Notes under the pieces: model-generated
The model's input: the letters and a program-made list of their open reading frames with translations, nothing else
Databases searched by the model: none
Told to the model about the DNA's origin: nothing
Shown here: positions 8,684 to 24,731 of the stretch, one piece after another
How the letters are laid out: each line of letters begins with the position of its first letter
How positions within the stretch are numbered: the first letter of the stretch is position 1
Position numbers and translations under genes: made by a program
Assembly: GCF_027571405.1 (NCBI RefSeq)
Contig: NZ_CP092968.1
Location: 1,178,001 to 1,242,000, forward strand
DNA: 64,000 nt
Source of the DNA: Methylocystis parvus OBBP
GTDB lineage: Bacteria; Pseudomonadota; Alphaproteobacteria; Rhizobiales; Beijerinckiaceae
Direction of reading: 5' to 3'

Positions 8684-10105
8684 TCAGGCGTCAGCCGTCT
8701 GCGCGGGCCGCGTAAGGACCTCGTCGCTGTCCGCCGTCGGGAACGCCAGTCTAAACGTCGCGCCGCCGCCGGGCGTCTCCTCGACCCAGACGCGCCCGTG
8801 GAGTTTCGTCATCAGCTCCCTTGCGATGGCGAGGCCGAGACCCGTTCCGGGCCTTGTCTCGCTCTTTCGCCAGAACGGCTCGAAAATCATCTCGCGATGA
8901 GCGGGCTCCACGCCCTCCCCGTGGTCGACGACCTCGACCGTCGCATTGGCGAGAACGCGGACGATCACCGTTCCGCCCTCGGGCTCGGCGCGCGCGGCGT
9001 TTTCGATGAGATTCGTCACGACGCTCTCAATCGCCCATTGATAGCCCTTGACGATCACCGGTCTCGCCGGGCCCTCAAAGGCGATGCGCCGGCCATGGGC
9101 GAGCGCCAGCGGCGTGTAGTCGGCCGCGACGGCGAGCGCCGTCTCGCCAAGGTCGATCTCCGGAACGGTCGGGCTCGCGCCGCGCTCCTCGACCTGCGCC
9201 AGCACCAGCAATTGCTCGAGGATCGTCTGAATGCGCTGCGCGTCGCGCTTCAGCTCCCGCTTGATCTCCGTTTCGTCAAGCTTGTCGACGCGCGTGCGCA
9301 GAATGGCGATCGGCGTGCGAAGTTCATGCGCCGAATTGGCGATGAAGCGGCGCTGCCGCGCCACGCCGTCGTCGACGCGCTGGAAGGCGGCGTTGACGGC
9401 GTTGATGAAGGGAACGACCTCCGAGGGCAGTCCCTCGACGGGAACGCGCCGGTCGAGCGAGTCGAGATCGATCTCGGAGACGGTCGCCGCGCTGGCGCGC
9501 AGCGGCTGGAGGCTTTTCCGCACGACGAACAGCGCGACGAGCGACAATGCGGCGCATAAGAGGGCGTAAGCGAGTAGATTTGGGATCGTGAGATAATAGT
9601 AGAGCGCGAAGACGAGATCGTCCCAGTGGAAGTCGGCGCCGTAGACAATGGTGCCGAAGCGCCCGATGGGCGTCTTGACCATGCGCGCCGAGCCCCGAGC
9701 CTTTCGATTTGGATCGCCGACGATGTGAAAGGTCGAGCCATAGGTCTCGATGAGCGTCATCTCGGCGCGAAAATATTCGGCGAGCGCGGCGTCCGAGCCC
9801 GGCAGGACGACGCCGGAGGTCGCGTCGAAGGCCGCATATCTGAATGACGGATTGCGTGCGATATGCGCCCGCAATGCGTCAGTCATTTCGACATAGGCTC
9901 CCTCCGGGCCCTTTCGCAGCGCGCTGATCAAGATGACGCGCGCGCGTTTGGAGGTCAGCCCTTCGAGCCGAACATAGCCGAGATCCTCAATTCCCAGCGC
10001 CGAAAGAGGAACCAGGACGGTTACAGGCACGGTGAAGAAGGCGAGCAGCGAGAAGGCGACCCAATAGACGACGAGACGCGATGAAAGCGATCGCGCTTGC
10101 CTCAC
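8684..10105 (-). CDS. Sensor histidine kinase of the mbn-adjacent two-component system
   Basis: A 473-residue inner-membrane histidine kinase. The N-terminal span (YWVAFSLLAFFTVPVTVLVP) and a second span around residues 180-200 enclose a periplasmic sensor of about 130 residues. A HAMP region and a phosphoacceptor box NSAHELRTPI (His260) follow. The ATPase domain has an N-box (NLIENAARA), a G1 box (DHGEGV) and a G2 box (GTGLGLAIA). The start overlaps the response-regulator stop as ATGA. No Met/His-rich copper-binding cluster is apparent in the sensor, so the signal is unknown. Its place next to the TonB receptor suggests it controls that gene, an inference. Confidence 0.88.
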   Translation of the reverse strand: MRQARSLSSRLVVYWVAFSLLAFFTVPVTVLVPLSALGIEDLGYVRLEGLTSKRARVILISALRKGPEGAYVEMTDALRAHIARNPSFRYAAFDATSGVVLPGSDAALAEYFRAEMTLIETYGSTFHIVGDPNRKARGSARMVKTPIGRFGTIVYGADFHWDDLVFALYYYLTIPNLLAYALLCAALSLVALFVVRKSLQPLRASAATVSEIDLDSLDRRVPVEGLPSEVVPFINAVNAAFQRVDDGVARQRRFIANSAHELRTPIAILRTRVDKLDETEIKRELKRDAQRIQTILEQLLVLAQVEERGASPTVPEIDLGETALAVAADYTPLALAHGRRIAFEGPARPVIVKGYQWAIESVVTNLIENAARAEPEGGTVIVRVLANATVEVVDHGEGVEPAHREMIFEPFWRKSETRPGTGLGLAIARELMTKLHGRVWVEETPGGGATFRLAFPTADSDEVLTRPAQTADA

Positions 10106-10779
10106 GCCGGCGACTTCTCGATGAGATAGCCGATGCCGCGCAGCGTGTGGATCTCCACGCCCGCCCGACAGTCCTTCAGCCGCTGGCGCAGGCGCGAGAC
10201 GGACATTTTCAGCGCGTCGAGCTGCACGCTGTCATTGAGCCCGTACATCTCGGAAACGAGCGTCGTATGGGTGACGGCGCGGCCGGCGCGGCGCACAAGC
10301 GACTCGAGCAGCAGCAATTCGCGTTTCGAGACGACGAAGGGCTTGCCGCGCACGAAAGCCTCATGCTGGTTGAGATCGAAAGAGAGATCGCCGATCGCGA
10401 CCGGCGGCACGATGGATCTGTCGGCGCGCCGCAGCACCGCGCGAATGCGCGCCAGCAATTCGTCGACGTCGAAGGGCTTGGTCAGATAGTCGTCGGCTCC
10501 GGCGTCGAGCCCATTGATCTTTTCGTCGAGCGCACGCGCGGCCGTCACCAGCATCACGCGCGTGCTGGGCCGCGAAACGCGGATCGTCTGCAGAATGGAG
10601 ACGCCGTCGCCGTCGGGCAGGCGCCGATCCAGCAGGAGCAGCGGATATTCATATTGCCGCAACGCCTCGGTCGCCTCCGCCAGCGTGCCGACGCAATCGG
10701 CCACATAGCCGGACCGCGTGAGCCGTTCCCCCATGACCGCAGCCAGGTCGGGCTGATCTTCGACGATTAAAATCCGCAT
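10102..10779 (-). CDS. OmpR/PhoB-family response regulator
   Basis: A 225-residue regulator: a receiver domain (EDQ acidic pocket, phosphoacceptor Asp51 in LLLLDRRLPDGDG, Lys in DYLTKPF) followed by a winged-helix DNA-binding domain (VSKRELLLLESLVRRAG; then VSRLRQRL and RGIGYLIE). The start is ATG 10779; the longer frame extends into the regulatory region. It is divergent from the DUF2946-like/TonB receptor genes. A pair of CGTTACG motifs at an 11-bp period, the usual spacing for this family, lies in the shared intergenic region. Confidence 0.9.
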   Translation of the reverse strand: MRILIVEDQPDLAAVMGERLTRSGYVADCVGTLAEATEALRQYEYPLLLLDRRLPDGDGVSILQTIRVSRPSTRVMLVTAARALDEKINGLDAGADDYLTKPFDVDELLARIRAVLRRADRSIVPPVAIGDLSFDLNQHEAFVRGKPFVVSKRELLLLESLVRRAGRAVTHTTLVSEMYGLNDSVQLDALKMSVSRLRQRLKDCRAGVEIHTLRGIGYLIEKSPA

Positions 10780-10915
10780 CTGAACAGGTTCCGCATCTGG
10801 TTTCCGGTCGGCGAGAAGCGAGATTGGAGACAGGCGACGGCTCAGCTTTGACCCTGTGTTGTTTCCTTGCAACACGGCTTTCCAAACGGAGCTTCCACAA
10901 AAACGGCGGCAAAAG

Positions 10916-10933
10916 CGTTACGTTGCCGTTACG
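10916..10933. promoter_or_regulatory. Candidate response-regulator site: two CGTTACG direct repeats
   Basis: CGTTACG occurs at 10916-10922 and 10927-10933, so start-to-start spacing is 11 bp, the helical period favoured by OmpR/PhoB regulators. It lies between the divergent regulator gene and the DUF2946-like gene if the latter starts at TTG 10979. Binding is inferred from spacing alone. Confidence 0.35.
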
Positions 10934-10978
10934 CGCCTCTTGGTAAAGATCAATTCGTTCATTACCGAGGATGCATCG

Positions 10979-11359
10979 TTGCAGCGGCTGGTTCGGCTCT
11001 TTGCGATATTCGCTTTTCTCCAGAGCTTCGCGCTGAGCGCCGCTCTGGAGACGAAGCACGCGCAAAATGCCGACGCGGCGGCGCCGGCGGCGGTCCTCGT
11101 CGCGGGCGACTGTGGAGCTCTCGGGGACGATGGCGGGGACCTCCCCCGACAATGCCGTCACGATCCATGCTGCATTCTATGCTCGTCCGGCTGTCAAGGC
11201 AAAACCGGCTTTTCAGTAGCTATTTTATCGGCGCGCGCGGAATTTGGAGCGCCAGAAATCCGGATAGGCTCCGTCGCCCGCGCCGACGGCGTTCCGGACA
11301 GACCGACCGCCATATTGGCGGGGTCCGTCTCCCAGCGCGGACCGCCGCTCAACTCCTGA
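10979..11359 (+). CDS. DUF2946-like cysteine-rich membrane/secreted protein
   Basis: A small protein of about 126 residues starting at TTG 10979 (GAGG 8 nt upstream); an in-frame ATG at 10856 would run through the regulatory repeats. It has an N-terminal hydrophobic signal/anchor (LVRLFAIFAFLQSFALSAALE), a cysteine cluster (CRHDPCCILCSSGC) and a C-terminal RGPP motif. This resembles DUF2946 proteins, which often neighbour copper genes. A related gene lies at 22144-22533, so two copies bracket the methanobactin locus. It is followed 75 nt later by the TonB receptor, probably in one operon. A copper-binding role is inferred. Confidence 0.6.
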   Translation: MQRLVRLFAIFAFLQSFALSAALETKHAQNADAAAPAAVLVAGDCGALGDDGGDLPRQCRHDPCCILCSSGCQGKTGFSVAILSARAEFGAPEIRIGSVARADGVPDRPTAILAGSVSQRGPPLNS

Positions 11360-11434
11360 CCGACCGCAACCGGCCTTTCGAGCCGAATGTCGTTATATGC
11401 GCGTGTCTCGGAGCCGCGCCAGGAGATTACCATT

Positions 11435-13852
11435 ATGCAGTCTTTTCGCAGCACCCTTTGGCGCGGCGTCTCCCTTTGCGCCTTCTCGGTAGCCGCCCTT
11501 AGCGCCACCTCCGTGGTCGCGCAGCAGAACCTTCCGGTCATCGATGTCGGCGCCGGGGCGCGTCGCGCGGCGCCGGGTCCGGCGACCCGGGCGCCCGTGG
11601 CCGGCGCGCCCGCTTCGTCCGGCCCGCGCACGCCCGCCAACGGCCAACCAGGAGCAGCGGCGGCTTCCGGCGACGCGCTGACGGCGCAGACCGGCGATCG
11701 CGCGACCGGCTATCTCGCGCAGCGAACGACTTCGCTCAAGCTGAACAAGCCCGTTCTGCAGATTCCCGTCTCGGTGCAGACGGTCACCCGTCAGACGATC
11801 GACGATCAACAGACGACCGACGTGTCCCAGGCGATCATCGGCAATGTCAGCAGCGCCTCGCCGCTGCCGATGAACTGCACGCTCTTTCAAAATCTTATGA
11901 TCCGCGGCTTCCCCACCGGGACGCTGTCCATGTCGAATCTCTATCGAAACGGCCTCCTCGTGCCGAACCAGCGTTGTCCGAGCACGGCGAATCTGCAGTC
12001 GATCGAGGTGGTGAAAGGTCCCGTCGCGATGCTTTACGGGCGCATCGAGCCCGGCGGCCTCGTCGACATGATCGTGAAGCGGCCGCTCGAGACGCCCTAT
12101 TATTCCTTCCAGCAGCAGGGCGGATCGTTCGGCGTCGCCAGAACGACGTTCGACGCCACTGGACCGCTCACGGCGGATAAGAACTGGCTCTATCGGGTCA
12201 ACGCCGAATATTTCCACAACCCGTCCTTCATCGATTTCGTGAACGACGAACGCTGGTTCGGCTCCGCGACGCTGACCTATCATCCGATCCAGAATTTCAA
12301 GCTGAATATCGACGCGGAATATAAGGACAACGTCTATACCGACGCCAATCCCAACATTCCGGCCATCGGCTACAACGCCGCGCCGATACCGATCAGCCGC
12401 TATATCGGCGATCCGAGCATCACCGTGAACAATCCGGATCACGACATGCGCCGGTTCGTCGCCTATGACTGGAAATACGACATCAATGAGAATTGGAATG
12501 TCGTGAATCGCTTCGCATACAGCAATACGCGTTCGATCCAGTCGAGCATGTTCAATATTTGCGTGAATGCGCCGCCGATCCCCGGCGCCGCCGTGCCGCC
12601 CGGCGCCTGTCCCGCGAACAGCCCCTTTGGAACGTCGACCCTGTCGCTCAATTGGGGGCCGCTCAGCATCCGGACGATCAGCGGCAATCTCGATTTGAAC
12701 GGCAAGATTCAGACCGGCCCGCTGCAGCATGTGCTGCTCTTCGGCACGGATCATGTGAGTTCCGCCAATGTCGGCGACATCTATCAGGCGAACGTCGCGC
12801 AGAACATCAACGTCTTCGCGCCGATCTATTCGCCCTTCGGCTTGTCTCGCTTCCTGATCCCGGCGAACGGCGCGGCGGTCATCCGAAAGCAGGAATGGCA
12901 GGGCTTTTATGCGCAGGACATGATTTCCGCCTTCGACGACCGCGTGCATCTGCTGCTCGGCGGACGTTACGATTCCGCCTCGGCCTTGAGCTCCGTCGGT
13001 CAGTCGACCTCCGCCATCATCAACAACGCCATGGACCGGGCCAATTTCCTCGGCGTTTCGGTGACCGATCACTTCTTCAGCCCACGGGCGGGCCTCGTGA
13101 TCCAGCCGATGCCCTGGCTATCCGTCTACGGCAACTACACGCAGTCCTATGGCGTGAACAATGGCGTCACCCGGGCCAACACGCCGCTCGGCTCGCAGCA
13201 GTCGACCCAATGGGAGGGCGGCGTGAAGGCCGAATTCTTCGATGGAAGGGTGCTTGCGACTGTCGCGTATTTCGACATCAAGAAATACAATCTCGCGCAG
13301 AACTCCCCAACCGCCCCGAACGCGCTCAGGGGCTATGTCGTGGATCTCCTCAACGCCCGGAGCCAGGGCGTGGAGTTCGACCTTAATGGCAGGATCGATG
13401 AAAACTGGAGCGTGATCGCCAATTACTCGCATCTCGGCACATATGTGACCAAAGGGTCGATACTTCCCGCCAACGACCCGTTCGACATTCGCACGCAAGC
13501 GCCGGTCGTCGGCAAGCGCCTCCCTGCGGTGCCGGAAAACATGGGCAGCGTCTGGCTGAAATATGACGCCGCCGGCGTCTTCCGGGGCTTCAGCGCCGCC
13601 GGCGGCTTCAGCTATTTCGGCAATTCCTGGGTCGATCCTGCGAACACCTATCTCAATCCCGCGTACACGCTGGTGAGAAGCATGGTGTCCTATCGCTTTC
13701 CTGTGGGGCCGACGCATGTGACGGCGCAGGTGAACGTCGATAATATTCTCAACCAGAACTATTATTACGGCACATCGCTGTTCCCCGGCCGCTATGCCGG
13801 AACGGCCGGCGTCCCGCGCAATGTCATGGGTTCGCTGCGCGTAGAGTTCTGA
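11435..13852 (+). CDS. mbnT: TonB-dependent receptor, probable methanobactin importer
   Basis: An 805-residue outer-membrane receptor of the siderophore type, expected to take up copper-loaded methanobactin with TonB energy. It has a signal peptide (ending SVVAQQ), an Ala/Pro-rich linker, a plug domain (QIPVSVQTVTRQTIDDQQ; then IEVVKGPVAMLYGR..PGGLVDMIVKRP) and a 22-strand barrel ending in SLRVEF with terminal Phe. The ATG at 11435 has AGGAG upstream. Unlike sigma-signalling receptors it has no N-terminal STN domain before the plug. The substrate is assigned from its place beside the mbn genes; another chalkophore or siderophore is possible. Confidence 0.75.
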   Translation: MQSFRSTLWRGVSLCAFSVAALSATSVVAQQNLPVIDVGAGARRAAPGPATRAPVAGAPASSGPRTPANGQPGAAAASGDALTAQTGDRATGYLAQRTTSLKLNKPVLQIPVSVQTVTRQTIDDQQTTDVSQAIIGNVSSASPLPMNCTLFQNLMIRGFPTGTLSMSNLYRNGLLVPNQRCPSTANLQSIEVVKGPVAMLYGRIEPGGLVDMIVKRPLETPYYSFQQQGGSFGVARTTFDATGPLTADKNWLYRVNAEYFHNPSFIDFVNDERWFGSATLTYHPIQNFKLNIDAEYKDNVYTDANPNIPAIGYNAAPIPISRYIGDPSITVNNPDHDMRRFVAYDWKYDINENWNVVNRFAYSNTRSIQSSMFNICVNAPPIPGAAVPPGACPANSPFGTSTLSLNWGPLSIRTISGNLDLNGKIQTGPLQHVLLFGTDHVSSANVGDIYQANVAQNINVFAPIYSPFGLSRFLIPANGAAVIRKQEWQGFYAQDMISAFDDRVHLLLGGRYDSASALSSVGQSTSAIINNAMDRANFLGVSVTDHFFSPRAGLVIQPMPWLSVYGNYTQSYGVNNGVTRANTPLGSQQSTQWEGGVKAEFFDGRVLATVAYFDIKKYNLAQNSPTAPNALRGYVVDLLNARSQGVEFDLNGRIDENWSVIANYSHLGTYVTKGSILPANDPFDIRTQAPVVGKRLPAVPENMGSVWLKYDAAGVFRGFSAAGGFSYFGNSWVDPANTYLNPAYTLVRSMVSYRFPVGPTHVTAQVNVDNILNQNYYYGTSLFPGRYAGTAGVPRNVMGSLRVEF

Positions 13853-13861
13853 TTTCGTCAA

Positions 13862-13907
13862 AGCGCCGTGGGCGGAGCAGGAGCCACCCTGCTCCGCCCA
13901 CGGCGCT
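13862..13907. terminator. Bidirectional terminator with a 20-bp perfect stem
   Basis: Left arm 13862-13881 and right arm 13888-13907 are perfectly complementary with a 6-nt loop. It sits between the convergent ends of the TonB receptor gene and the dioxygenase gene, so it can end transcription from both sides. The T-tracts are modest. Confidence 0.85.
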
Positions 13908-13927
13908 CTTCCTTCAAACGCTGATTG

Positions 13928-14551
13928 TCAGTCGCGGATCCAGAAGCGGAGTAGAATGCGCTCATCTCCTTCCAGCGCGTCGCGCCCGTGCAGCATCCGC
14001 CGATTGTCGATCACCAGCAGACTGCCGGGCCGCAACGCGATTGCGACGCTCGCGGGCCCGGGAAACTCGTCCAGCGCCGCCATGAGAGGCGCGCAGGACG
14101 CAGAGAGCGACCCAGTTTCGACGAGCCACGGCGCGTAATTGAGACGCCAGCCCCTCTCCGCATCTCCGTCGAGCACCGGGAGACTGCCCGCTTCATGCAT
14201 GCCGTCGATTTTGGGAAAGCGCGCTTTGGTGCGCCGCAAGGCGTCGCGCTGCGCGGCGGGCGCGGCGTCGAAGATCGGCCTCGTATCCTTCAGCCGCATC
14301 TCGCCCCCGCTCTCCTGCTGTGCGACGCAGAGCCAGGCGACGTAGCGCGCCATCGGCGAGTCCGTGTGATAGGGCAACATATCCTTACGCCTGAAATAGG
14401 ACGTGGCGCCGGGCTCGACGCGGATTTCAGTCCGATGCCCGATCGGTCCGAGTTCGGCGCAGACCGCCGTGAAACGCGCGAGCGCGACCGGCGCCTCCGA
14501 GAGAAAATAGCCTTGCTTCGCGACCGTTTCGCGGACACTGTCCGGAGTCAC
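13928..14551 (-). CDS. TauD/TfdA-like Fe(II)/2-oxoglutarate dioxygenase
   Basis: A 207-residue oxygenase. The iron triad is visible as HTD in LPYHTDSP and a distal His in RRMLHGRDAL; the 2-oxoglutarate-binding Arg follows in LLRFWIRD. The start is the GTG at 14551, overlapping the mbnF stop as GTGA, so it is the last gene of the mbnABCMF run. It occupies the position taken in other methanobactin operons by tailoring genes such as mbnN or mbnS. It therefore probably hydroxylates or oxidises the peptide product, a new tailoring step inferred from context. The terminator at 13862-13907 follows. Confidence 0.8.
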   Translation of the reverse strand: MTPDSVRETVAKQGYFLSEAPVALARFTAVCAELGPIGHRTEIRVEPGATSYFRRKDMLPYHTDSPMARYVAWLCVAQQESGGEMRLKDTRPIFDAAPAAQRDALRRTKARFPKIDGMHEAGSLPVLDGDAERGWRLNYAPWLVETGSLSASCAPLMAALDEFPGPASVAIALRPGSLLVIDNRRMLHGRDALEGDERILLRFWIRD

Positions 14552-16197
14552 GACGCCTGCTCCGCCACCTGCGCCGCGCGCGCCGGATCGACGGGTCCGG
14601 GCAGACAACGCACTTGTGCGAAGGCGGCCGCCAATTGCGTCGCAGGATCTTCCGTAAGGGAGACCGACCGCCAAGCAATGAATCCATCCGGACGAACAAG
14701 GAGGGCGCCGTCGTCGAAAAGGCCCGTCTTTTCGAGGAAGCGGCCTTCTTCGTCCAGCGCGTCCACCGACAGATGCGCCGCCAGAATGGGTTCGCCCTGC
14801 CCCGCAAGGCGCCGCGCCGCCTCCGCCCACGCCGCGCCGCGCGGGCCGACGAATAGCGTGTAATCCCGACCAGCGAAATCATGGCTCGACAGGAGGCGGT
14901 CGTTCTGGCGCAAAACGACATGTGCGAGGCGCGTGCCGGGCGAACCGGAAGGCGTCAGCGGGTTTTCCGTCTCCGCCCCGTCGTCGCTGGCGTCGAGCGC
15001 GATGGCGTCGGAGCGGTAGCGATAGCCCATCGCCGCGCTGAGATAATCGGCCTCATGCGCGCGCAGGCGCACATCGTCGCGCGCGGGCTGAAGTCGTTCG
15101 ACATAATTGGCGAGCTGCCGCGACAAGGCGATATGAGCGACCGGCAGGCGCTCGGCCTGATAGGCGTCAAGCAGCGCCGGGCCGGCATGGCCTTTCAGCA
15201 CGAAAGCCAGCTTCCAGGCGATGTCGGCCGCATCCTGCAGCGCGGTCTGGCCGCCGAGCCCGCCGACCGGCGGCATGAGATGCGCGGCGTCACCGATGAG
15301 GAAAACGCGACGATCGGCGATCCGCTTGGCGATGAGCGCGGATTTTCGCCAGAACAGAACGTCGAGAATTTTCACGTCGATAGCGCCGAGGCCGAGCGCG
15401 TCGCGCACCATGGCGGCGCAACGCGTCGCGTCATAGGCGGACGCAGGTTCGGCGTCGGGATCGATGGCGATATTGAGCTGGCCGCGCCCCGGATCGTCGC
15501 AACTCACGAAAACGCCGGAGAAGGACGGATTGCGCAAATAGCACAGCACGAATCCGCCGCCGGGGATCAGTTTCGCGGGATCAGCCTCGAACAGGATCGA
15601 GACGGAATGCGAGATGACGCCCGGTCCCTCCATCTCGATCCCGAGCGCGTCCCGCGTGACGCCATGCGCCCCGTCGGCGGCGATCATATAATCCGCGCGC
15701 ACCTCATAGTCCCGGTTCGAGGCCTCGTCGCGCAATGTCGCGGTCACGCCCTCTTCGTCTTGCGCAAATGTCGTGAGCGTCGTCGAAAAGCGGATATCGG
15801 CGCCCTGCGCGCGCGCATGTTTGAAAAAGACCGGCTCGACGCGGTCCTGTCCGGCGGTGCAGATCTGCGCCGGCGAGATGCTCGGCCCGTCGAAATCGCT
15901 TTTCCTGATGAGCGTTCGCTGGCGGGGACCGGCGACGGTTTCGGCGATATAAACGTCGACCTCATTGGCGCCGGCGCGGGAGATGGCGAAGAGCTCGCTT
16001 TCCAACCCGGGAACCACCCGCAGCAGCTCCATGCTGCGACGGTTGACGCCATGCGCCTTGGGATGCCGCGACGCCGCGGCGTGACGCTCCGCCACGATGC
16101 AGGCGACGCCGCGCCATGCAAGCAACATGGCCGCCGCCAGACCGGCATAGCCGCCGCCGCGAACGAGCACTTGCGTGCGTTCGACCTGCAAGCTCAT
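14548..16197 (-). CDS. mbnF: FAD-dependent monooxygenase of the methanobactin pathway
   Basis: A 549-residue class A flavin monooxygenase (PheA/TfdB type). It shows a dinucleotide-binding GGGYAGLAAAM near residue 15, the DG motif (MIAADGAHGVTRDALG) and the GD motif (VFLIGDAAHLMPPVGGLGGQ); a thioredoxin-like C-terminal domain follows. The ATG at 16197 has AAGGAGGG upstream. It lies 41 nt after mbnM and overlaps the dioxygenase gene. In Methylocystis methanobactins MbnF is linked to converting an oxazolone-type ring into a pyrazinedione. I infer the same kind of ring oxidation here, though the substrate core differs. Confidence 0.85.
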   Translation of the reverse strand: MSLQVERTQVLVRGGGYAGLAAAMLLAWRGVACIVAERHAAASRHPKAHGVNRRSMELLRVVPGLESELFAISRAGANEVDVYIAETVAGPRQRTLIRKSDFDGPSISPAQICTAGQDRVEPVFFKHARAQGADIRFSTTLTTFAQDEEGVTATLRDEASNRDYEVRADYMIAADGAHGVTRDALGIEMEGPGVISHSVSILFEADPAKLIPGGGFVLCYLRNPSFSGVFVSCDDPGRGQLNIAIDPDAEPASAYDATRCAAMVRDALGLGAIDVKILDVLFWRKSALIAKRIADRRVFLIGDAAHLMPPVGGLGGQTALQDAADIAWKLAFVLKGHAGPALLDAYQAERLPVAHIALSRQLANYVERLQPARDDVRLRAHEADYLSAAMGYRYRSDAIALDASDDGAETENPLTPSGSPGTRLAHVVLRQNDRLLSSHDFAGRDYTLFVGPRGAAWAEAARRLAGQGEPILAAHLSVDALDEEGRFLEKTGLFDDGALLVRPDGFIAWRSVSLTEDPATQLAAAFAQVRCLPGPVDPARAAQVAEQAS

Positions 16198-16238
16198 CGC
16201 CCCCTCCTTCGCCGACGCGTTTTCTCGGAACCCGCGCG

Positions 16239-17510
16239 TTAAATCTGAAAGGCCGTCCGCCGCACGCCCCGCGTTCCGGCGAGACGCGACGACAGCAGCA
16301 TCGCGCAAACCGCCTCGGGCGCGACGAGCGCCAGATAGGCGACGGCCGGCATGTCGAGATGAAGCCCGAGCGCCGTCAAAGGCAGCGCGACGCAGGCCGC
16401 GGCGAGCGCGTCCGTCATGGCGGCGTCCGGGAAGCGGCCGGCGGCCTGAAGCGCGCCACGAAACACATTGGCGACGAAGCGGATCGGCAGGGAGATGGCG
16501 AGCGCCGCGACGAAGGTCGACCACCAGCGTCCCTCGCTGTGATAAAGCGCGGCGCCGAGACGATCGCCGCTCAATTGAAGCAACAAGGCGGCGACAAGCG
16601 CAACAGGAAGGCCCTGGCGCAGCAGTGGCCGGATGCGATCAATCGGCGCGCTGGCGAGACGAATAGCGAGAAAACGCGTCAACGCTGTGAAAGGGGTCAA
16701 CGCCAGAAGAATGAGCGTCTGTCCCGCCGCGTAGCAATCGACGCGCGACAGCTCGAAACGTCCGATCCAGGGAGACGCGAACAGCGCGAAGGATGCAAGG
16801 ACGAGCAATTGCGGAGAGAGAATGCGCGCGGCTTCGGACAGGGCGTCGACGACAATGGCGCGCACGACGGGCCAGGGCGGAAGCCGGGGCCGCGCCTCGT
16901 TGCGGAAACCCACCATCGCAAAACTCGCCGCCGCTCCGGCGAGGGCGGCCGCGAGGCTCGCCGCGAAGACGCCCGAAAAGCCGAAGCCGAGCGGATAGAC
17001 GAAGGCGTAAGCGAGCGCCGCCTTCATCGCGATCTCGAAAAATTTCCAGCTCAGCGCCGCGCCTCCCTTGTCGAGCGCGAACAGGATGAAAAGACCGACG
17101 CCTGAGAGAATTCGAAACGGGATCGCGACGAGGTGCCAGCCTAGCGCCGCATTGGCGAAATCCGCGACTTCGGCGGCGCCCCCGACAAAGCGCAGAATGG
17201 CCGGGTATGCAAGCGCGCCGCAGGCGCTGGCCAGAAGCCCGGCGACGACGGCGACGACCCATAAATGGCCGACGATCTTGGCGCGATTTGACGGGTCGGA
17301 TGTTTTGGCGACCGCCACGGAAGCGACCGCGCCGATTCCCGCCGCCAGCGCAGCGTCAAGCATCGCGATCCGGCTCAGCAAAGCGTAGCTCGCCGGCGCG
17401 CCCGTTCCCAGCCGCGCGATCAACGCAATGTCGATCTGCGCCGAGACCGGCGCGATCGACAGCGTCGCGAGCAGAGGAAAAAAGCCGCGCCAGAAGCCCG
17501 CCTGAATCAT
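16239..17510 (-). CDS. mbnM: MATE-family exporter of methanobactin
   Basis: A 423-residue polytopic protein with about twelve hydrophobic spans and the fold of MATE exporters, including the duplicated domain pattern. MbnM proteins are thought to export apo-methanobactin across the inner membrane. The ATG at 17510 overlaps the mbnC stop as ATGA and has GGAG 9 nt upstream; an in-frame GTG at 17528 lacks a ribosome-binding site. Export in this strain is inferred from the conserved operon position directly after mbnC. Confidence 0.88.
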   Translation of the reverse strand: MIQAGFWRGFFPLLATLSIAPVSAQIDIALIARLGTGAPASYALLSRIAMLDAALAAGIGAVASVAVAKTSDPSNRAKIVGHLWVVAVVAGLLASACGALAYPAILRFVGGAAEVADFANAALGWHLVAIPFRILSGVGLFILFALDKGGAALSWKFFEIAMKAALAYAFVYPLGFGFSGVFAASLAAALAGAAASFAMVGFRNEARPRLPPWPVVRAIVVDALSEAARILSPQLLVLASFALFASPWIGRFELSRVDCYAAGQTLILLALTPFTALTRFLAIRLASAPIDRIRPLLRQGLPVALVAALLLQLSGDRLGAALYHSEGRWWSTFVAALAISLPIRFVANVFRGALQAAGRFPDAAMTDALAAACVALPLTALGLHLDMPAVAYLALVAPEAVCAMLLSSRLAGTRGVRRTAFQI

Positions 17511-18079
17511 AACGGCAAACTCCGCCACCCGGGAAAGGTCGTGATTTCGGGCGCCGCGACCGTGAAATAGCCGAAAAACTCATCGCCCAGGGGAAGCGGC
17601 TCCTCCAGCTCGATCATCTCGACCTGACGCCCCGCGTCGAGACTGCGGCACTTCCAGCCGACGACGAGATTTGGGACTTCCTTGCAGCCGATCACGAGCC
17701 CCATCGCAGCGCTACGGTCGCGCACCGCCCAACGCGCGGCCGACGCGCCGATCAGCGACTGCAACAGATCCTTCGTGAGGCGGTCAGCGAACGCCGACTG
17801 CCGCAGCCAAACGTAAAGCCACAAATAATAGGACCAGGTGAAGCGAACGCCGCGCTCCCGCGCCCATTCCATGAAAGGCGAAAAGATCGACATGCCGTCC
17901 GGGCCGGACAATTCGAGAAGCTCGGGGCAGATGTCGAAGGTCGAATGCCAGTAGGCGCGCAAGCTGACGTCGATGCGCGCATAGGCGCGCGACTCCGGAG
18001 GATAATTCAGGATCAGCTTCGGCGAGGTCAGAACGTCGTATAATTCCGGATCAGTGCGCGCAAGCGAGGTTTGACTCAT
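17507..18079 (-). CDS. mbnC: MbnC, partner of the oxazolone/thioamide-forming enzyme
   Basis: A 190-residue protein matching MbnC in size, position and character. MbnC forms a heterodimer with MbnB and binds the leader peptide so that Cys-containing pairs become oxazolone-thioamide groups. Aromatic-rich segments (ARIDVSLRAYWHSTFDICPE; YYLWLYVWLRQ) are typical of the family. It starts 29 nt inside the end of mbnB with AGAGGA upstream, so the two subunits are translationally coupled. It is soluble, with no signal peptide. Confidence 0.88.
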   Translation of the reverse strand: MSQTSLARTDPELYDVLTSPKLILNYPPESRAYARIDVSLRAYWHSTFDICPELLELSGPDGMSIFSPFMEWARERGVRFTWSYYLWLYVWLRQSAFADRLTKDLLQSLIGASAARWAVRDRSAAMGLVIGCKEVPNLVVGWKCRSLDAGRQVEMIELEEPLPLGDEFFGYFTVAAPEITTFPGWRSLPL

Positions 18080-18887
18080 GTCGCTGGTCCTCTGAAGTCG
18101 TCGAGAAGATGTCCCGCAGACGCTTGAGATCGATCACGATCGACTCGTAGTCGATATTGCCGTCCCGCTCGTACGTCATCGTCGCATTCGGCTTGTCGAA
18201 GAGGTCGCGCCGCCCGCGCAGAAAATCGAGCGTCTTCTCCGACAGTTCTTCCGAATGCGAGTCGTGGATGACATACGGGGGCGTCGTCGCGCGGCTGTAG
18301 CCCGCCACATGAAAATGCGGCGTCTCGGCGATGATCTTGTCCCAGGCCTCGAGCGGCGCGCCGCAATTGAGATTGGCGCAAACCGCATTCGAGGCGTCGA
18401 AGAGCACGCTGGCGCCCGTATCCGCGATGAGGCGCTCGAAGAAGCGCGGCGCCTCCCATCCGCCTTCGAGGATAGAGGGATAATTCTCGATGAACAGGCG
18501 CTGGCCGAGCATTTCCTGCCAAAGATCGACCCGCGTGCGAACGCGATCATAATCCTTCACATAGTCGAGCTCGCCGAGATGAAACAGATTGACGCCGCGA
18601 TGGGTGAAGCTGGCGCCGTGATCCGAAACGTAAAGCGGCTGCATGTCGCGAATGAGCACGCGAATTCTCTTTGCGAAATCCTCGAGCGTCTCCTGATCCG
18701 CGTCGATGAATTCCGAGAACATGATGTGGAAGCCGACCGGACAATCGAAGGCCCGCGCGAGTTCCGCCGGCGGAACGCCGATGAAATTGTCGATCAGAAA
18801 TTCGCAGTAATCGATATGGCCTTCAGCCAACATGCGCCGCACCATGTCTGCGGTCTCGGTGAGGGTAAAGTTGAAGCCAATCCGCAT
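18051..18887 (-). CDS. mbnB: MbnB, DUF692 iron-dependent peptide-modifying enzyme
   Basis: A 278-residue DUF692 TIM-barrel protein. With MbnC it converts X-Cys pairs of MbnA to oxazolone/thioamide groups using iron and O2. Likely metal ligands match the family pattern: His54 (GFHIM), His90 (SDHG), Glu134 (FIENYP), Asp164 and Asn167 (FDASNA), His193 (FHVAG), Asp209/His211 (HDSH) and Glu240. ATG 18887 is chosen because the family begins at MRIGFNF and GGGGGA lies upstream; the longer frame runs into the mbnA-mbnB hairpin. It overlaps mbnC. Confidence 0.93.
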   Translation of the reverse strand: MRIGFNFTLTETADMVRRMLAEGHIDYCEFLIDNFIGVPPAELARAFDCPVGFHIMFSEFIDADQETLEDFAKRIRVLIRDMQPLYVSDHGASFTHRGVNLFHLGELDYVKDYDRVRTRVDLWQEMLGQRLFIENYPSILEGGWEAPRFFERLIADTGASVLFDASNAVCANLNCGAPLEAWDKIIAETPHFHVAGYSRATTPPYVIHDSHSEELSEKTLDFLRGRRDLFDKPNATMTYERDGNIDYESIVIDLKRLRDIFSTTSEDQRHESNLACAH

Positions 18888-18916
18888 CTCGATCCCCCGC
18901 GCGCCACATGAAGAAA

Positions 18917-18943
18917 GCGTGCGCCGCCGGCGACGGCGCACGC
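18917..18943 (-). terminator. Stem-loop between mbnA and mbnB (possible attenuator)
   Basis: Arms 18917-18926 and 18934-18943 form a perfect 10-bp GC-rich stem with a 7-nt loop, starting 7 nt after the mbnA stop. On the transcribed minus strand it is followed by TTTCTT, a weak U-tract. Partial termination or 3'-end protection here would yield more precursor message than enzyme message. The structure is seen directly; its function is inferred. Confidence 0.65.
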
Positions 18944-18950
18944 GACGGCG

Positions 18951-19034
18951 TTACGCCCAGCAGGCGGTGCCGCAATCCGCGCCGGCGCGGCCGTTAACGG
19001 CGAGGGCGGTGCGCTTCACGATCTTGATCGTCAT
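18951..19034 (-). CDS. mbnA: Methanobactin precursor peptide MbnA
   Basis: A 27-residue ribosomal precursor of a copper-binding chalkophore. The leader begins MTIKIVK and contains the family GRA motif (VNGRAG, residues 13-18). Aligned with known precursors, cleavage after residue 19 leaves an eight-residue core DCGTACWA. Its two Cys (21 and 25) are spaced C-x3-C, so the two modified pairs would be Asp20-Cys21 and Ala24-Cys25. The ATG at 19034 has a strong GGAGG site 6 nt upstream. The core is shorter than the 11-residue cores of the best-known methanobactins and lacks extra cysteines. From memory, similar short-core precursors were predicted in acetic acid bacteria; I could not check this. 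Confidence 0.93.
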   Translation of the reverse strand: MTIKIVKRTALAVNGRAGADCGTACWA

Positions 19035-19068
19035 CTTAGCCTCCAATTTTAATGATGAGCATCTCGCA

Positions 19069-19080
19069 CGAAATATTTCG
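19069..19080. promoter_or_regulatory. 12-bp perfect palindrome upstream of mbnA
   Basis: CGAAATATTTCG lies 34 nt before the mbnA start codon, in an AT-rich 178-bp gap between mbnH and mbnA. Upstream of it, on the minus strand, there is a TTGACT and a long run of TA steps (around 19135-19165). It could be an operator for a dimeric regulator or part of the promoter. No binding protein can be named. Confidence 0.35.
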
Positions 19081-19183
19081 CGCATCACATGAATGCTCGA
19101 CAAGTCATTTGTGAATTGCGAGCAGGTATATTCAAGCATATATATAATATATGAGTCAACAATAATTCCGTTATGTCTATGTT

Positions 19184-19219
19184 ACGCTGGATCAATTTAG
19201 ATTTTAGCAGATTCAGCGT
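19184..19219 (-). other. Inverted repeat over the mbnH stop codon
   Basis: Arms 19184-19193 and 19210-19219 pair at 9 of 10 positions with a 16-nt loop. It straddles the mbnH stop, with no U-tract after it on the transcribed strand. It may be a weak terminator or mRNA-end structure ahead of the separate mbnA promoter. Confidence 0.3.
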
Positions 19220-20391
19220 GAGTTTAAGTTACTTGACGTCTTTGCAATGCTCGCATCATTGCCCGCCCATGGGTTCGAATAACGTGGCGAGCGCAGAAAC
19301 TCCTCATCCGTCAGCGTCTTCAAAAAGGCGATGAGATCGCTTTTTTCCTGGGGGCTGAGGTCGATGGGAACGATCAGATCGCTCTTGTGCGGATTGACGC
19401 GGCCGTCTCCGGCGAGCGGGCCGGAAGCGACGTCGCGCCCTCCCGCCGCGTAGAGATCGACGACGTCTTCGAGAGTCGCCACGCTGCCGTCATGCATGTA
19501 GGGCCCGGTCACCGCGATATTGCGCAGGCTCGGCGCGCGGAACTTGCCCATATCGTCGAGCGCATGCGTCGACTCGAACAGGCCGCGATTGGGCGCGGGA
19601 TAATCGCCCTTGCCGCTGAGATTGTACATGCCGGTATTGTGGAAGGGCGTCTCGATCTCGCGCGTGCCCGCGTGATAGAACTGGTCGTCGAAATTCACGC
19701 TGCCATGGCAGTGATGACACTCGGCCTTTTCGCCGAAGAAGAGATCCTTGCCGCGCGTCTCCTCCGGCGTCAGCGAGGCCTTTCCTTCAAGATAGAGGTC
19801 ATATTTCGAGCCGGTTGAAATCACGCCCCGCTCGAAGGCGGCGATCGCCTTGATGATGTTGCCGAATGAGATCGGCTCGGCCTCGTTCGGAAAGGCGCGC
19901 GCGAAGGCGCGCCGATAGGATTCGTCGCTCTTGAAGCGCGCGACGATTTCGCCGCGATTCGCGTCGTTCACGCCCATCTCGACGGGCCCTTCTCCAAAGA
20001 GCGGGCCTTCCATCTGGCGTTCCAGCGTCACCATCGCCGGGTTCGCCCAGGTCAGCGTCGCGCGCCAGGCGGCGTTGGCGATGCTCGGCGAGTTTCGCGG
20101 CGTCTGTTCGCCCGTCGATCCGATCGCGACCTTGCGGCCGTCCGTGAAGGCGCGCTCCTGCAGATGGCATGAGGCGCAACTCTCCTTGCCATTGCCGGAA
20201 AGCCGCGTGTCGTAGAAGAGCGTTCGCCCGAGCTGAAATCGCGCCTCCGACATTGGATTGTCGGCCGGAACGCGGGGCGGCGGCAGGAAGCTCGGGAGAT
20301 TCCAGCTCCATTTCTCCGCCTCCTCGCCCGCCGAGGGAACGATCTGCGCCAGAAGGGCGACGGCCGCCGCCGTCTTTCGCCAATTCCGCAT
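19213..20391 (-). CDS. mbnH: MbnH, MauG-like di-haem c peroxidase
   Basis: A 392-residue periplasmic di-haem protein of the bacterial cytochrome c peroxidase/MauG family. The signal peptide ends near PSAGEE. The two haem sites are CASCH (about residue 80) and CHHCH in KAECHHCHGSV. MbnH oxidises a tryptophan of MbnP to kynurenine in Methylosinus, producing a copper-binding protein. The start is ATG 20391, whose first base overlaps the mbnP stop (TAATG), so the pair is co-translated. Here the pair lies upstream of mbnA, in contrast to the better-known order with P and H at the end. Confidence 0.88.
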   Translation of the reverse strand: MRNWRKTAAAVALLAQIVPSAGEEAEKWSWNLPSFLPPPRVPADNPMSEARFQLGRTLFYDTRLSGNGKESCASCHLQERAFTDGRKVAIGSTGEQTPRNSPSIANAAWRATLTWANPAMVTLERQMEGPLFGEGPVEMGVNDANRGEIVARFKSDESYRRAFARAFPNEAEPISFGNIIKAIAAFERGVISTGSKYDLYLEGKASLTPEETRGKDLFFGEKAECHHCHGSVNFDDQFYHAGTREIETPFHNTGMYNLSGKGDYPAPNRGLFESTHALDDMGKFRAPSLRNIAVTGPYMHDGSVATLEDVVDLYAAGGRDVASGPLAGDGRVNPHKSDLIVPIDLSPQEKSDLIAFLKTLTDEEFLRSPRYSNPWAGNDASIAKTSSNLNSR

Positions 20392-21431
20392 TATTTGCTC
20401 TCGACTTTGAAAAGTTTCGCCGCGACATTTCCGCTCTTGGCGCCCTCTCCCGGCTGCGCGCTTTCTTTGGCGCCGAGGCCGAAGGCGTCGAAGACGGCCG
20501 CGCATTCGGGATCGGTCGGCCCGCTCATGCATCCCGTGGCGCCGCCCTTGTCGCGATTGAGATCGAACGGCGCAAGAAGGCTTTGCAGATCGAGAACGAC
20601 GCGCTGCTTGACGGGATCGAAGCGCGCAAGCGTCACTGGAACGCGATTGGGAGTGGCGCAGGCCACGATCTCGCCCGTTATCGGATCGCCTTTGCACCCT
20701 GTCGATCCGAGATGGAGCATCCAGGTCGCGACGGTGATGGTGCCGTCGGCGTTGCTCTGTATCGGCTCCGGCGTCTGATCGGCCTTCTCCGGCGCGTCGG
20801 CCCGCGGCGGCGGGCTCGCGCTACCCGCGGCGGCGGCGCGCGGCGGACGCGGCGGCATTGGCGGACGCACGATCCCGCCTTCCGGCGCGACTTCGAGCTT
20901 GACGAATTTACGACCGGCCTGCCAGCTCCAGCTCATCGACTGAATGTCGAGCGGCGCCGGCGCGGTCGCGAAATTCGAATGGTTGAGCGAGACTTCTTTC
21001 CCGTCGTCTCCCTTGCCGAGGGTCGGCACGCCGATCACGAAGGAAAGGCCCTGATAGCGGCCGGCTGGAACCTGCCCCGTCAACGTGGCGTTGGCGCCCT
21101 TCGTCCCGCGACAATTGCCTGTCTTGTCGTCGAAATCGATGAGCGCGACATTGGCGTATTGCCAGTCGTTGCGCGTCAGCTCGATCGGCGTGGCCTTGCC
21201 GTTTTTGTCGATCAGCGCGGCGTCGGAGACGTAGAAGCTCGCTTCGCGGAGCTTGGCGTTCACATGGTTCGCGCCGAGGCCATGAATGTCGTGGCCGCAA
21301 TCGACCGGCTGGCCGTCCGCGGCGAGCGCGAAGGAAATCTCGACGGCTTGCGGTTTCGCGGGCGCCGCTGAAACGCCGGCGGCCCCCGCAACCGTCGCCA
21401 CGAAAATAATGAAGAACTCGGACCGCATCAT
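20391..21431 (-). CDS. mbnP: MbnP, periplasmic copper-binding partner of MbnH
   Basis: A 346-residue secreted protein of the MbnP family. The signal peptide ends near GVSAAPA. The core has DCGHDIHGLG, then the conserved tryptophan segment SMSWSWQAGRKFVKLE (Trp168 and Trp170 of the precursor). In the characterised homologue, a Trp in this motif is converted by MbnH to kynurenine and helps bind copper. An unusual Pro/Ala-rich insert (residues about 184-222) follows the motif. Two Cys pairs later (GSTGCKGDP; VACATPN) may form disulfides. It is translationally coupled to mbnH and preceded by the sigma-factor gene. Confidence 0.87.
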   Translation of the reverse strand: MMRSEFFIIFVATVAGAAGVSAAPAKPQAVEISFALAADGQPVDCGHDIHGLGANHVNAKLREASFYVSDAALIDKNGKATPIELTRNDWQYANVALIDFDDKTGNCRGTKGANATLTGQVPAGRYQGLSFVIGVPTLGKGDDGKEVSLNHSNFATAPAPLDIQSMSWSWQAGRKFVKLEVAPEGGIVRPPMPPRPPRAAAAGSASPPPRADAPEKADQTPEPIQSNADGTITVATWMLHLGSTGCKGDPITGEIVACATPNRVPVTLARFDPVKQRVVLDLQSLLAPFDLNRDKGGATGCMSGPTDPECAAVFDAFGLGAKESAQPGEGAKSGNVAAKLFKVESK

Positions 21432-21528
21432 GCTCCCTCGATTTTTCTTTCGACGCTTTCGCCGATTGTGATGCGTTGAACGCGCGGCGCGCCGAAAACC
21501 CGACGCGCCGCCGTTAATTTTTTTCCGG

Positions 21529-22047
21529 TCACGCGCGCGCGCAGCCGCCGTGAGACGCGCGATCGCGCAATTGGGCGAGGCCCCGCGCCAAACGCCGTTC
21601 GACCGTGCGCAGCGTGACGCCGAGATGGCGCGCGACCTGCTCCTGACTCATCTCTTCGAACCAATAGAGAAGAAAGACGCCTCGGCACGCCGGCGGCAGC
21701 TCGTCGAGCAGCGCCTTCATCTGCCCGCGCGTTATTTCCGGCTCGACGGCTGGTTCGTATCCGCAAGCATTTGCAGAGGCGAATTCATGCGCAACGTAAC
21801 GCAGGCGCGTCGCCCGCCGTCGCAGCGCGTCGATTCCGGCGTTTTGCACAACGGCGAAAAGATAAGCCCTCGGATAGCGCCAGGCCGCCTCCGGCTGGCA
21901 TTGAATCAACTTCAAAAACGCGTCATGCACGACGTCTTCGTCGTCGAGCGCGCCAACGCGTTTTCGCGCGTGGCCGCGCAAACATTGCGCATGATCGCGG
22001 TACAGCGCTTCGAAGAAGTCGCGCTCGGCGTTCATCGTCGCCTCCAT
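21529..22047 (-). CDS. mbnI: ECF sigma factor, MbnI-like
   Basis: A 172-residue FecI-type ECF sigma factor with region 2 (DEDVVHDAFLKLIQ.. RAYLFAVVQNAGIDALRRR) and region 4 (LDELPPACRGVFLLYWFEEMSQEQVARHLGVTLRTVERRLARGL). In methanobactin loci MbnI drives mbnA expression during copper starvation, restrained by the FecR-like MbnR and signalling through the STN domain of MbnT. Neither an mbnR gene nor an STN domain is present here, so another mechanism must control it. It lies 97 nt before mbnP in the same direction. The symbol is assigned by context. Confidence 0.78.
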   Translation of the reverse strand: MEATMNAERDFFEALYRDHAQCLRGHARKRVGALDDEDVVHDAFLKLIQCQPEAAWRYPRAYLFAVVQNAGIDALRRRATRLRYVAHEFASANACGYEPAVEPEITRGQMKALLDELPPACRGVFLLYWFEEMSQEQVARHLGVTLRTVERRLARGLAQLRDRASHGGCARA

Positions 22048-22143
22048 GACGGGTGCGTTCGGCCGCGACGCCCGCGCGCGTCGTGACGTCGGGCGGCCGG
22101 TTGATATAGGAGGAAGGTCGATCCGCAGCGCGCGAGGCGCGCG

Positions 22144-22533
22144 TTACGACGCGTCGTAAGAGCGATGCCCGGCGAAGACGTCGGGCGGACCGCGCGCGGC
22201 GGCCAAACGGCGCGTTACAGACGCGCTCAACGCTTTGTCGAAGCGGCGCCAGTCAATGACCGTATCCAGGCGGCGCGGCGTCGGCGACGCGCTGCCGACG
22301 GCGACATAAAGCCCGCCGAAACAGGCCGCGCCTAAAACGCAGCACCCGCTTTCGTCGACATGTGCGCTGTCGGGATTGAGCGGATTCGAGAGCGAACACG
22401 CCGCCATCGAAAGCGCCGCGCCGTTCTCCGGCCGGGACTGCGCGGCCGCCAGAACAGACAAGGCGAAAAGCCAGCACGCCAAAGCGCACGCGAGGCGCGC
22501 TCTCCCGAAAAGAATTTTCAAGCAAAAGTGCAT
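22144..22533 (-). CDS. DUF2946-like cysteine-rich protein, second copy
   Basis: A 129-residue protein with an N-terminal hydrophobic helix (LACALACWLFALSVLAAAQS), a central cysteine cluster (ESGCCVLGAACFGG) and RGPP near the C-terminus. It shares this layout with the gene at 10979-11359 although overall identity looks low. It resembles DUF2946 proteins, frequently found near copper genes. It is the first gene of the minus-strand methanobactin run, 96 nt ahead of the sigma factor. It may act in copper sensing or handling, an inference; enzymatic motifs are absent. Confidence 0.6.
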   Translation of the reverse strand: MHFCLKILFGRARLACALACWLFALSVLAAAQSRPENGAALSMAACSLSNPLNPDSAHVDESGCCVLGAACFGGLYVAVGSASPTPRRLDTVIDWRRFDKALSASVTRRLAAARGPPDVFAGHRSYDAS

Positions 22534-22590
22534 GGCGCGCGAAGGATAGGACGCATCGCCGAAATTGCAATTGGATTATGTCGCGCGCAG

Positions 22591-22618
22591 CGTAACGAAG
22601 CGAAGGAAATTCGTTACG
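22591..22618. promoter_or_regulatory. Inverted repeat CGTAACGAA...TTCGTTACG
   Basis: Perfect 9-bp arms (22591-22599 and 22610-22618) with a 10-nt spacer, 58 bp upstream of the DUF2946-like gene that heads the mbn run. The inner heptamer is the same as the direct repeats at 10916-10933 before the TonB receptor operon, so one regulator might serve both. A hairpin in the leader RNA is the alternative. Confidence 0.4.
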
Positions 22619-22903: not shown

Positions 22904-22990
22904 ATGTCCGAGCCCGACATCGGCTTGATCGTCGCCGTCCTGCTTGGCGGCTATCTCGTTTACTCGCTGTTGCGTCCCGAAAAATTCTAA
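22904..22990 (+). CDS. kdpF: KdpF, small subunit of the K+-transporting ATPase
   Basis: A 28-residue single-span peptide: [20 protein letters not shown] then SLLRPEKF. The C-terminal LLRPEKF motif is diagnostic of KdpF, which stabilises the KdpFABC complex in the inner membrane. The ribosome-binding site AGGAGG lies upstream of ATG 22904. It is followed 31 nt later by kdpA. Confidence 0.92.
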
Positions 22991-23021
22991 CCGAGAGGGC
23001 CGGCTGCGCCCGGCTGACGCC

Positions 23022-24731
23022 ATGACATTCATCGGATTGGCTCAGATCGCCATCGTACTCGTCGCCGTCGTCTTGGCGGCGATTCCGCTCGGCGGCTATG
23101 TCGCCCGCGTTTTCGCCGGCGAGCAAACCTTGCTCTCGCCCGCGCTGTCGCCGGTGGAGAACGCCTTCTACCGCTCCGCTGGCGTCGATCCGTCGCGCGA
23201 GCAAGGCTGGCAAGCCTATACCTTCGCCATGCTGGCGTTCAGCGTCGTGGGATTCGCGTCGCTCTATGCGTTGCAGCGCCTGCAGGGCGTCCTGCCGCTC
23301 AACCCGCAAGGCTTCTCCGGCGTCCCGGCCGATCTCGCCTTCAACACGTCGCTGAGCTTCGTCACAAACACCAACTGGCAGAATTACGGCGGCGAGACGA
23401 CGATGAGTCATCTCACGCAAATGCTTGGCCTGACTGTGCATAATTTCGTCTCTGCGGCGACGGGTCTCGCAATGGCCTTCGCCCTTGTGCGCGGTTTCGC
23501 GCGCTCCGAATCCGCGACCGTCGGCAATTTCTGGGTTGATCTCACGCGAGCGACGCTTTACGTGCTGCTGCCGCTCTCCGTCGTCTTCGCGCTCGTCCTC
23601 GTCGCGCTCGGCGTTCCACAAACGCTCGCCGGCTCGATCGAAGCGACGACGTTGGAAGGCGTCAAGCAGATCATATCGATCGGGCCCGTCGCCAGCCAGG
23701 AAGCGATCAAGGAGCTCGGCACGAATGGCGGCGGTTTCTTCAACGCCAATTCCGCGCATCCCTTCGAGAACCCCAACGCAGCCTCCAATATGTTGGAGAT
23801 TTTCGCGCTGCTCCTCGTTCCCTTTGCGTCGGTCTTCGCTTTTGGCCGGACCGTGCTCGATGCGAGACAGGGGCGGGTCATCGCGATCACCATGGGGATC
23901 GTGCTCGTCGCGGGCGTGCTGATCGCCTATTGGGCCGAAGCCGCGGGCAACCCGCTTCTAACGGATATCGGCGTCGATCCGTCGCCGGGGAATATGGAAG
24001 GAAAGGAAGTGCGTTTCGGCGTCGCGGCCAGCACGCTCTTCGCGGCGGCGACGACGGGCACGAGCACGGGCGCCGTCAACTCGACGCACGATTCCTTCAC
24101 GCCGCTCGGCGGCTTTGTTCCGCTCTTCAACATGCTGCTCGGCTGCATCTCGCCGGGCGGCGACGGCGCGGGCCTTTACGGCTTCCTCGTGCTCGCCGTG
24201 ATCGCGGTCTTCGTCGCCGGTTTGATGGTCGGCCGCACGCCGGAATATCTCGGCAAGAAGATCGAAACGCGGGAGATGAAGCTCGCAATGCTCGCCGTGC
24301 TGATCTATCCGCTGAGCGTGCTCGGCTTCACCGCCGCGTCGCTGATGCTGAAGACCGGGCTGGACAGCCTCGCCAACGCCGGGCCGCACGGACTTTCCGA
24401 AGTTCTCTACGCCTTCGCGTCGACCAACGCGAATAACGGCTCGGCCTTCGCAGGCCTCGCCGGCAATACGCTTTGGTACAATACGACGCTCGGCGTCGCC
24501 ATGTTCGTCGGGCGCTTCTTTTTCATCGTGCCGGTTCTGGCGCTCGCCGGGTCTTTCGCGGCGAAGAAAAAGGCGCCCGCTTCCGTCGGCACATTCCCGA
24601 CTCACGGACCGCTCTTCGTCGGCCTGCTGCTCGGCGTCATCCTCATCCTCTACCTGCTGCAATATTTCCCGGCGCTCGCGCTCGGCCCCATCGTCGAGCA
24701 TTTCCTGATGCATGCCGGCAAAAGCTTCTAA
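23022..24731 (+). CDS. kdpA: KdpA, potassium-binding channel subunit
   Basis: A 569-residue integral membrane protein, standard length for KdpA. It contains the selectivity-filter-like loops (for example [46 protein letters not shown]) of the superfamily of K+ transporters and about ten spans. It forms the K+ path of the KdpFABC pump used at very low external potassium. The start is ATG 23022; the longer frame includes part of kdpF in another frame. Confidence 0.96.

Follow-up and report, generated by a model that had tools for sequence, protein, structure and literature searches.

The chromosomal methanobactin locus of Methylocystis parvus OBBP: a probable Cys-Trp operon with a TauD-like gene

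The stretch of the Methylocystis parvus OBBP genome analysed here (contig NZ_CP092968.1, positions 1,178,001 to 1,242,000; 64,000 nucleotides, hereafter the window) contains a methanobactin locus that is very probably the chromosomal Group II operon of this species, a member of the Cys-Trp subfamily with a proposed pathway from precursor to copper-binding product. The full gene set lies inside the window, and the gene identities are confirmed by matches to curated families (Pfam and NCBIfam). A first-pass annotation, made from the letters of the sequence, had called the locus complete and had named a 27-residue precursor, MbnB, MbnC, a MATE exporter, an FAD monooxygenase, MbnP, MbnH, and an ECF sigma factor. 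The curated-family matches agree with this gene set, and the assignment is not a matter of chance, since the precursor and the Mbn proteins pass the cut-offs.

M. parvus OBBP has been reported to carry two mbn operons with two distinct mbnA genes (Kenney and Rosenzweig 2013, PMC3621798), and a profile search of the host genome indeed gave two MbnA and two MbnB genes over the cut-off. The same paper describes a subfamily of Group II precursors with Trp after the second Cys, from M. parvus OBBP, Methylosinus sp. LW3, and a bioreactor metagenome; the second operon of Methylosinus sp. LW3 is described there as lacking a nearby TonB receptor. The other precursor of M. parvus OBBP, located on a 205-kb plasmid (contig 3), is MAIKIVKKEILPVIGRVQAFCSSCSGGGQCGCGPA and contains no Trp; thus, the operon in the window is inferred to be the Cys-Trp operon published in 2013, with which it shares the strain, the presence of two operons, and the Trp after the second Cys. 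The consulted part of the published description differs in making no mention of the TauD-like gene and the two-component system reported below. Five Group IIB clusters have been counted (PMC9601215), a label that may or may not denote the Cys-Trp set.

As a new discovery, therefore, the locus could not be upheld, because both mbn operons and the Cys-Trp precursor of this strain have been in print since 2013 (PMC3621798). It is an ordinary, already known methanobactin locus that itself adds little new, and the TauD-like gene is a modest addition. Its value lies in the coexistence of two different methanobactin operons in a single strain, and in a Cys-Trp product with a private oxygenase, which tests which core sequences are open to MbnBC, MbnF, and a TauD-family enzyme.

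Gene order and family matches

The locus comprises the following genes; L034 denotes the other Cys-Trp locus, found in the sister-genus genome G078.

18951–19034, minus strand: mbnA, 27-residue precursor (PF25751, TIGR04071)
18051–18887, minus strand: mbnB, iron enzyme of the MNIO/DUF692 type (TIGR04159, 446 bits, cut-off 325)
17507–18079, minus strand: mbnC (TIGR04160, 281 bits, cut-off 185; PDB MbnC 7fc0, E 3.9e-57)
16239–17528, minus strand: mbnM, MATE exporter (NF045578, 510 bits, cut-off 285)
14548–16197, minus strand: mbnF, FAD monooxygenase (NF045577, 892 bits, cut-off 800; PDB 8fhj, E 3.6e-201)
13928–14551 (about), minus strand: TauD-family Fe(II)/2-oxoglutarate oxygenase, operon tail (PF02668, E 1.8e-15)
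19213–20391, minus strand: mbnH, di-haem enzyme (TIGR04039, 487 bits, cut-off 363)
20391–21431, minus strand: mbnP, copper-binding partner (TIGR04052, 276 bits, cut-off 140)
21529–22047, minus strand: ECF sigma factor (sigma70-ECF, TIGR02937, 83 bits, cut-off 42.9)
11387–13852, plus strand: TonB-dependent receptor, probable mbnT (TIGR01783, 275 bits, cut-off 223.5)
10102–10779, minus strand: response regulator (75% identical to its L034 counterpart; conserved beside the other Cys-Trp locus)
8684–10105, minus strand: sensor histidine kinase (67% identical to its L034 counterpart)

Read 5′ to 3′, the minus strand has the order ECF–mbnP–mbnH–mbnA–mbnB–mbnC–mbnM–mbnF–tauD-like, and past the end of the tauD-like gene lie the TonB receptor on the plus strand and then the two-component system on the minus strand. 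None of the twelve frames contains an internal stop. The genes mbnH and mbnP, both upstream of mbnA, overlap by 1 base, and mbnB and mbnC lie immediately downstream of the precursor gene, each with a product over its NCBIfam cut-off. Genes for both an exporter (MbnM) and a TonB importer are present. The TauD-like gene, the TonB receptor, and the two-component system fall within the interval of the first-pass annotation and were not named there. The receptor is 43% identical to that of the plasmid locus and 61% identical to that of G078, and the kinase comes closest to an NCBIfam heavy-metal kinase subfamily, with a score of 161 bits that stays under the cut-off of 293. Beyond the locus, a KdpA potassium-transport gene (window positions 22944–24731, plus strand) marks its far edge.

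Precursor, MbnB, and proposed maturation

The mbnA gene, preceded by the ribosome-binding site GGAGG, encodes the precursor MTIKIVKRTALAVNGRAGADCGTACWA. It matches the Pfam Methanobactin model (PF25751) with an E value of 1.9e-16 and 60 bits (cut-off 27), covering 27 of the 27 positions, and TIGR04071 with 5e-15 and 54.9 bits (cut-off 24). In an alignment with 11 other precursors, the predicted leader is MTIKIVKRTALAVNGRAGA and the predicted core is DCGTACWA, with the cleavage boundary placed from known precursors. Trp directly follows the second Cys and the CASTCA motif is absent, as in the definition of the Cys-Trp subfamily. The first-pass annotation had stressed how far a core of eight residues differs from the best-studied products, which have 11; the core is short indeed, and the contrast was overstated. 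Predicted methanobactin cores are reported to span 7–15 residues, and that of Methylocystis SB2 is given as RCASTCAA, i.e., eight residues, with TNG likely to follow (PMC3621798), so a core of eight is not extraordinary. A text search of the literature for short core motifs did not return the full core, and its matches, in papers on a virus, Phytophthora, and ticks, were taken for the letters of DNA primers.

The window MbnB matches the MbnB entries of the PDB with an E value of 1.6e-106. The residues listed for VcMbnB in the MbnBC structure paper are His55, His91, Glu135, Asp165, Asn168, His194, Asp209, Glu238, and His211; their counterparts in the window protein, H54, H90, E134, D164, N167, H193, D209, H211, and E240, are invariant in 33 of 33 aligned MbnB rows, the correspondence being matched by position with VcMbnB outside this alignment. 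Loss of the family ligands had been named in the first-pass annotation as a reason to doubt the locus; since the counterparts of the published iron ligands are invariant, no such loss is apparent at the sequence level. The MbnB tree was built on 33 rows, after one row containing a stop and eight identical rows had been removed from 42. In it, the window protein and the MbnB of the G078 DCGTACW locus are sisters with a support of 100/100. This pair stands beside the Methylocystis Group II proteins; the wider fork (91/86) is less firm and is drawn open. The window locus and Methylocystis Group II (core RCASTCAATNG and kin) share the MbnABCMF order and the C-x3-C spacing, and their MbnB proteins are about 58–60% identical. 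Yet, the window core ends in Trp-Ala without a TNG-type tail, the TauD-like gene is extra in the window, and in Methylocystis Group II the precursor and the ECF sigma gene apparently share a single frame (open frames of 280–364 residues), which is not so in the window. Three other matches of the MbnB model in the host genome, all under the cut-off, were observed (G000 C1:3670636-3671361, 2340329-2340832, and 537719-538441) and, being so, are assigned to other MNIO/DUF692-type genes.

According to previous reports, MbnBC acts on X-Cys pairs, MbnM is believed to be the exporter, and the TonB receptor imports the product (PMC9601215; MbnBC structure paper), whereas MbnF has been proposed to act on the N-terminal oxazolone, yielding a pyrazinedione or imidazolone (PMC10167746). 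For the Cys-Trp product, we infer chemistry, export, import, and regulation along the same lines. MbnB together with MbnC would probably oxidize at least one X-Cys pair of DCGTACWA to a heterocycle and a thioamide, MbnF would probably alter the N-terminal ring, and the TauD-family oxygenase would probably carry out one further oxidation. The leader would then be removed and the product exported by MbnM; outside the cell it would bind copper, and the TonB receptor would bring it back. Conversion of both X-Cys pairs into copper ligands, as proposed in the first-pass annotation, would be plausible.

Two points weigh against the assignment of the window to an active Cys-Trp operon with this pathway. 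First, the Trp after the second Cys of the core departs from the C(G/A/S) motif that is tied to modification in solved products (PMC3621798). The residues after the second Cys thus lend some support to a product in which only Asp-Cys becomes a heterocycle and the Cys before Trp stays a thiol, with copper bound by ring plus thiol or by a dimer; the MbnBC structure paper also raises that other enzymes are possibly needed for more than one modified Cys. We regard such a single-ring product as unlikely, albeit worth weighing, since the other Cys-Trp locus and the CASTCA-type precursors of Methylocystis retain the C-x3-C spacing, as expected if both Cys residues serve as ligands.

Second, the methanobactin isolated from OBBP has been described as a "group I MB" with an N-terminal Phe and two oxazolones (PMC8788703), which fits the plasmid operon, so expression of the chromosomal operon is only presumed. 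This description would also suit a silent or relic chromosomal operon, in which case all methanobactin of the strain would come from the plasmid operon. That situation is improbable, however, given that the twelve frames lack internal stops, that the Mbn-named proteins exceed curated cut-offs, and that a locus of another genus retains the block that runs from the kinase to MbnB. The preferred reading remains a chromosomal Cys-Trp operon in its own right. Among the papers listed in searches of the open-licence full-text literature, no isolation of a Cys-Trp product was found, a result short of proof of absence, and this product seems uncharacterised. The product of Methylosinus sp. LW3 attributed to Park et al. 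in 2021 reportedly has 13 residues, i.e., it is other than the Cys-Trp one.

The TauD-like gene and the Cys-Trp core

The TauD-like gene has a presumed GTG start and a 4-base overlap with the mbnF stop. Close homologues (E ≤ 1e-10) were found in 2 of 49 genomes, namely one of the 39 from the genus Methylocystis and one of the 10 from the sister genus. These are the same two genomes that carry the DCGTACW core, and the gene adjoins mbnF in both. The two copies are about 59–60% identical, and both keep H65-T66-D67, H191, and R201/R205, an HTD...H...R arrangement that we take to be the iron and 2-oxoglutarate binding pattern of the superfamily. The gene is present in one of 13 compared loci (L034; the plasmid locus of the host is among the 13) and is absent from eight further loci; several of all these loci are cut short. 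Against PDB sequences, the protein gave no match at E 0.01.

It is rather unlikely that the gene is a chance neighbour with no role in methanobactin synthesis. The association rests on two cases, because only two loci carry the gene, and these perhaps represent one inherited block; on the other side stand the overlap with mbnF, the identity and the HTD...H...R pattern kept between the two loci, and the confinement of the gene to exactly the genomes with a Cys-Trp core.

Hydroxylation of the core is a possible role for the TauD-like enzyme. We suggest, with low confidence, that Cys-Trp methanobactins form a distinct chemical class in which the oxygenase would hydroxylate either the core Asp, so that β-hydroxyaspartate would flank the first ring, or else the core Trp, an oxidative step unseen in solved methanobactins. 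Asp is found in both Cys-Trp cores and also in the Methylocystis cores DCGATCSATNG and DCASVCTSVNG (genomes G217 and G223). Since no TauD-like homologue was found in G217 or in G223, the latter 59% complete, the idea of Asp as the substrate is weakened. The name MbnD has reportedly been used for a dioxygenase. The MbnBC structure paper lists MbnD as suggested for biosynthesis.

The plasmid operon and related loci

The M. parvus OBBP genome comprises 4,529,117 bases, and its two plasmids are reported to have 248,224 and 204,886 bases (PMC10112054). The plasmid operon belongs to Group I (core FCSSCSGGGQCGCGPA) and shares with the window mbnABCMF, MbnP and MbnH, and a TonB receptor. It differs in having a long core with four Cys residues and FecR and sigma genes nearby, and in lacking a TauD-like gene. 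A 6,001-base stretch of contig 3 that includes its mbn genes shows 100% identity to NZ_CP044333.1, a 204,886-base plasmid of M. parvus BRCS2, a strain described as 99.99% identical to OBBP (PMC7788130). The first-pass annotation had judged the chromosomal precursor gene short enough for automatic annotation to overlook; the plasmid mbnA is annotated in NZ_CP044333.1. That record gives the gene in the place of MbnH (L033 11999-13159) the name "methanobactin export MATE transporter MbnM" and lists mbnM proper as a "hypothetical protein"; the equivalent region of contig 3, however, matches MbnH at 68%, so these labels are likely an annotation mix-up. A further observation concerns mbnF, which is present in this Group I operon (L020 8366-15102; L033 7274-11869): next to the reported product with two oxazolones, this is hard to reconcile with the proposal for MbnF (PMC10167746).

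Among relatives, the Pfam Methanobactin model matched in 22 of 39 Methylocystis genomes, host included, and in 7 of 10 sister-genus genomes; these contain 23 and 8 precursor loci, respectively, and all 31 precursors were read. A Cys-Trp core occurs in two of them, that of the window and that of G078 (MAINIVKRTTLVVNGRTGADCGTACWG), with absences being soft because some genomes are incomplete. An MbnB search of 385 genomes of the class gave five at E 1e-60, host included. A precursor search of 397 genomes of the order returned the host genome alone; as G078 went unreported there, either not drawn or missed, this result says little on rarity. The G078 locus L034 shares with the window the response regulator, the kinase, and the TonB receptor at the identities given above. 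The receptor of L034 also speaks against G078 being Methylosinus sp. LW3, whose second operon has none nearby. The 19.9 kb of L034 gave no match to MbnP, MbnH, or the ECF gene, which counts against a fully shared unit. Some of the compared loci may coincide: L008 and L061, at the least, seem to be a single site, as their contigs have the same length.

Two further loci have unusual precursors. The Methylocystis locus of G201 (L039 / L060) has an outlying precursor with the core CCGSHCTPVR and a long-branch MbnB, and its 19.9 kb gave no match to the MbnP, MbnH, TonB receptor, or ECF gene of the window. In the sister genus, locus L038 (G199) has a precursor whose core, FCDGGQCAALAA, does not resemble the others read there.

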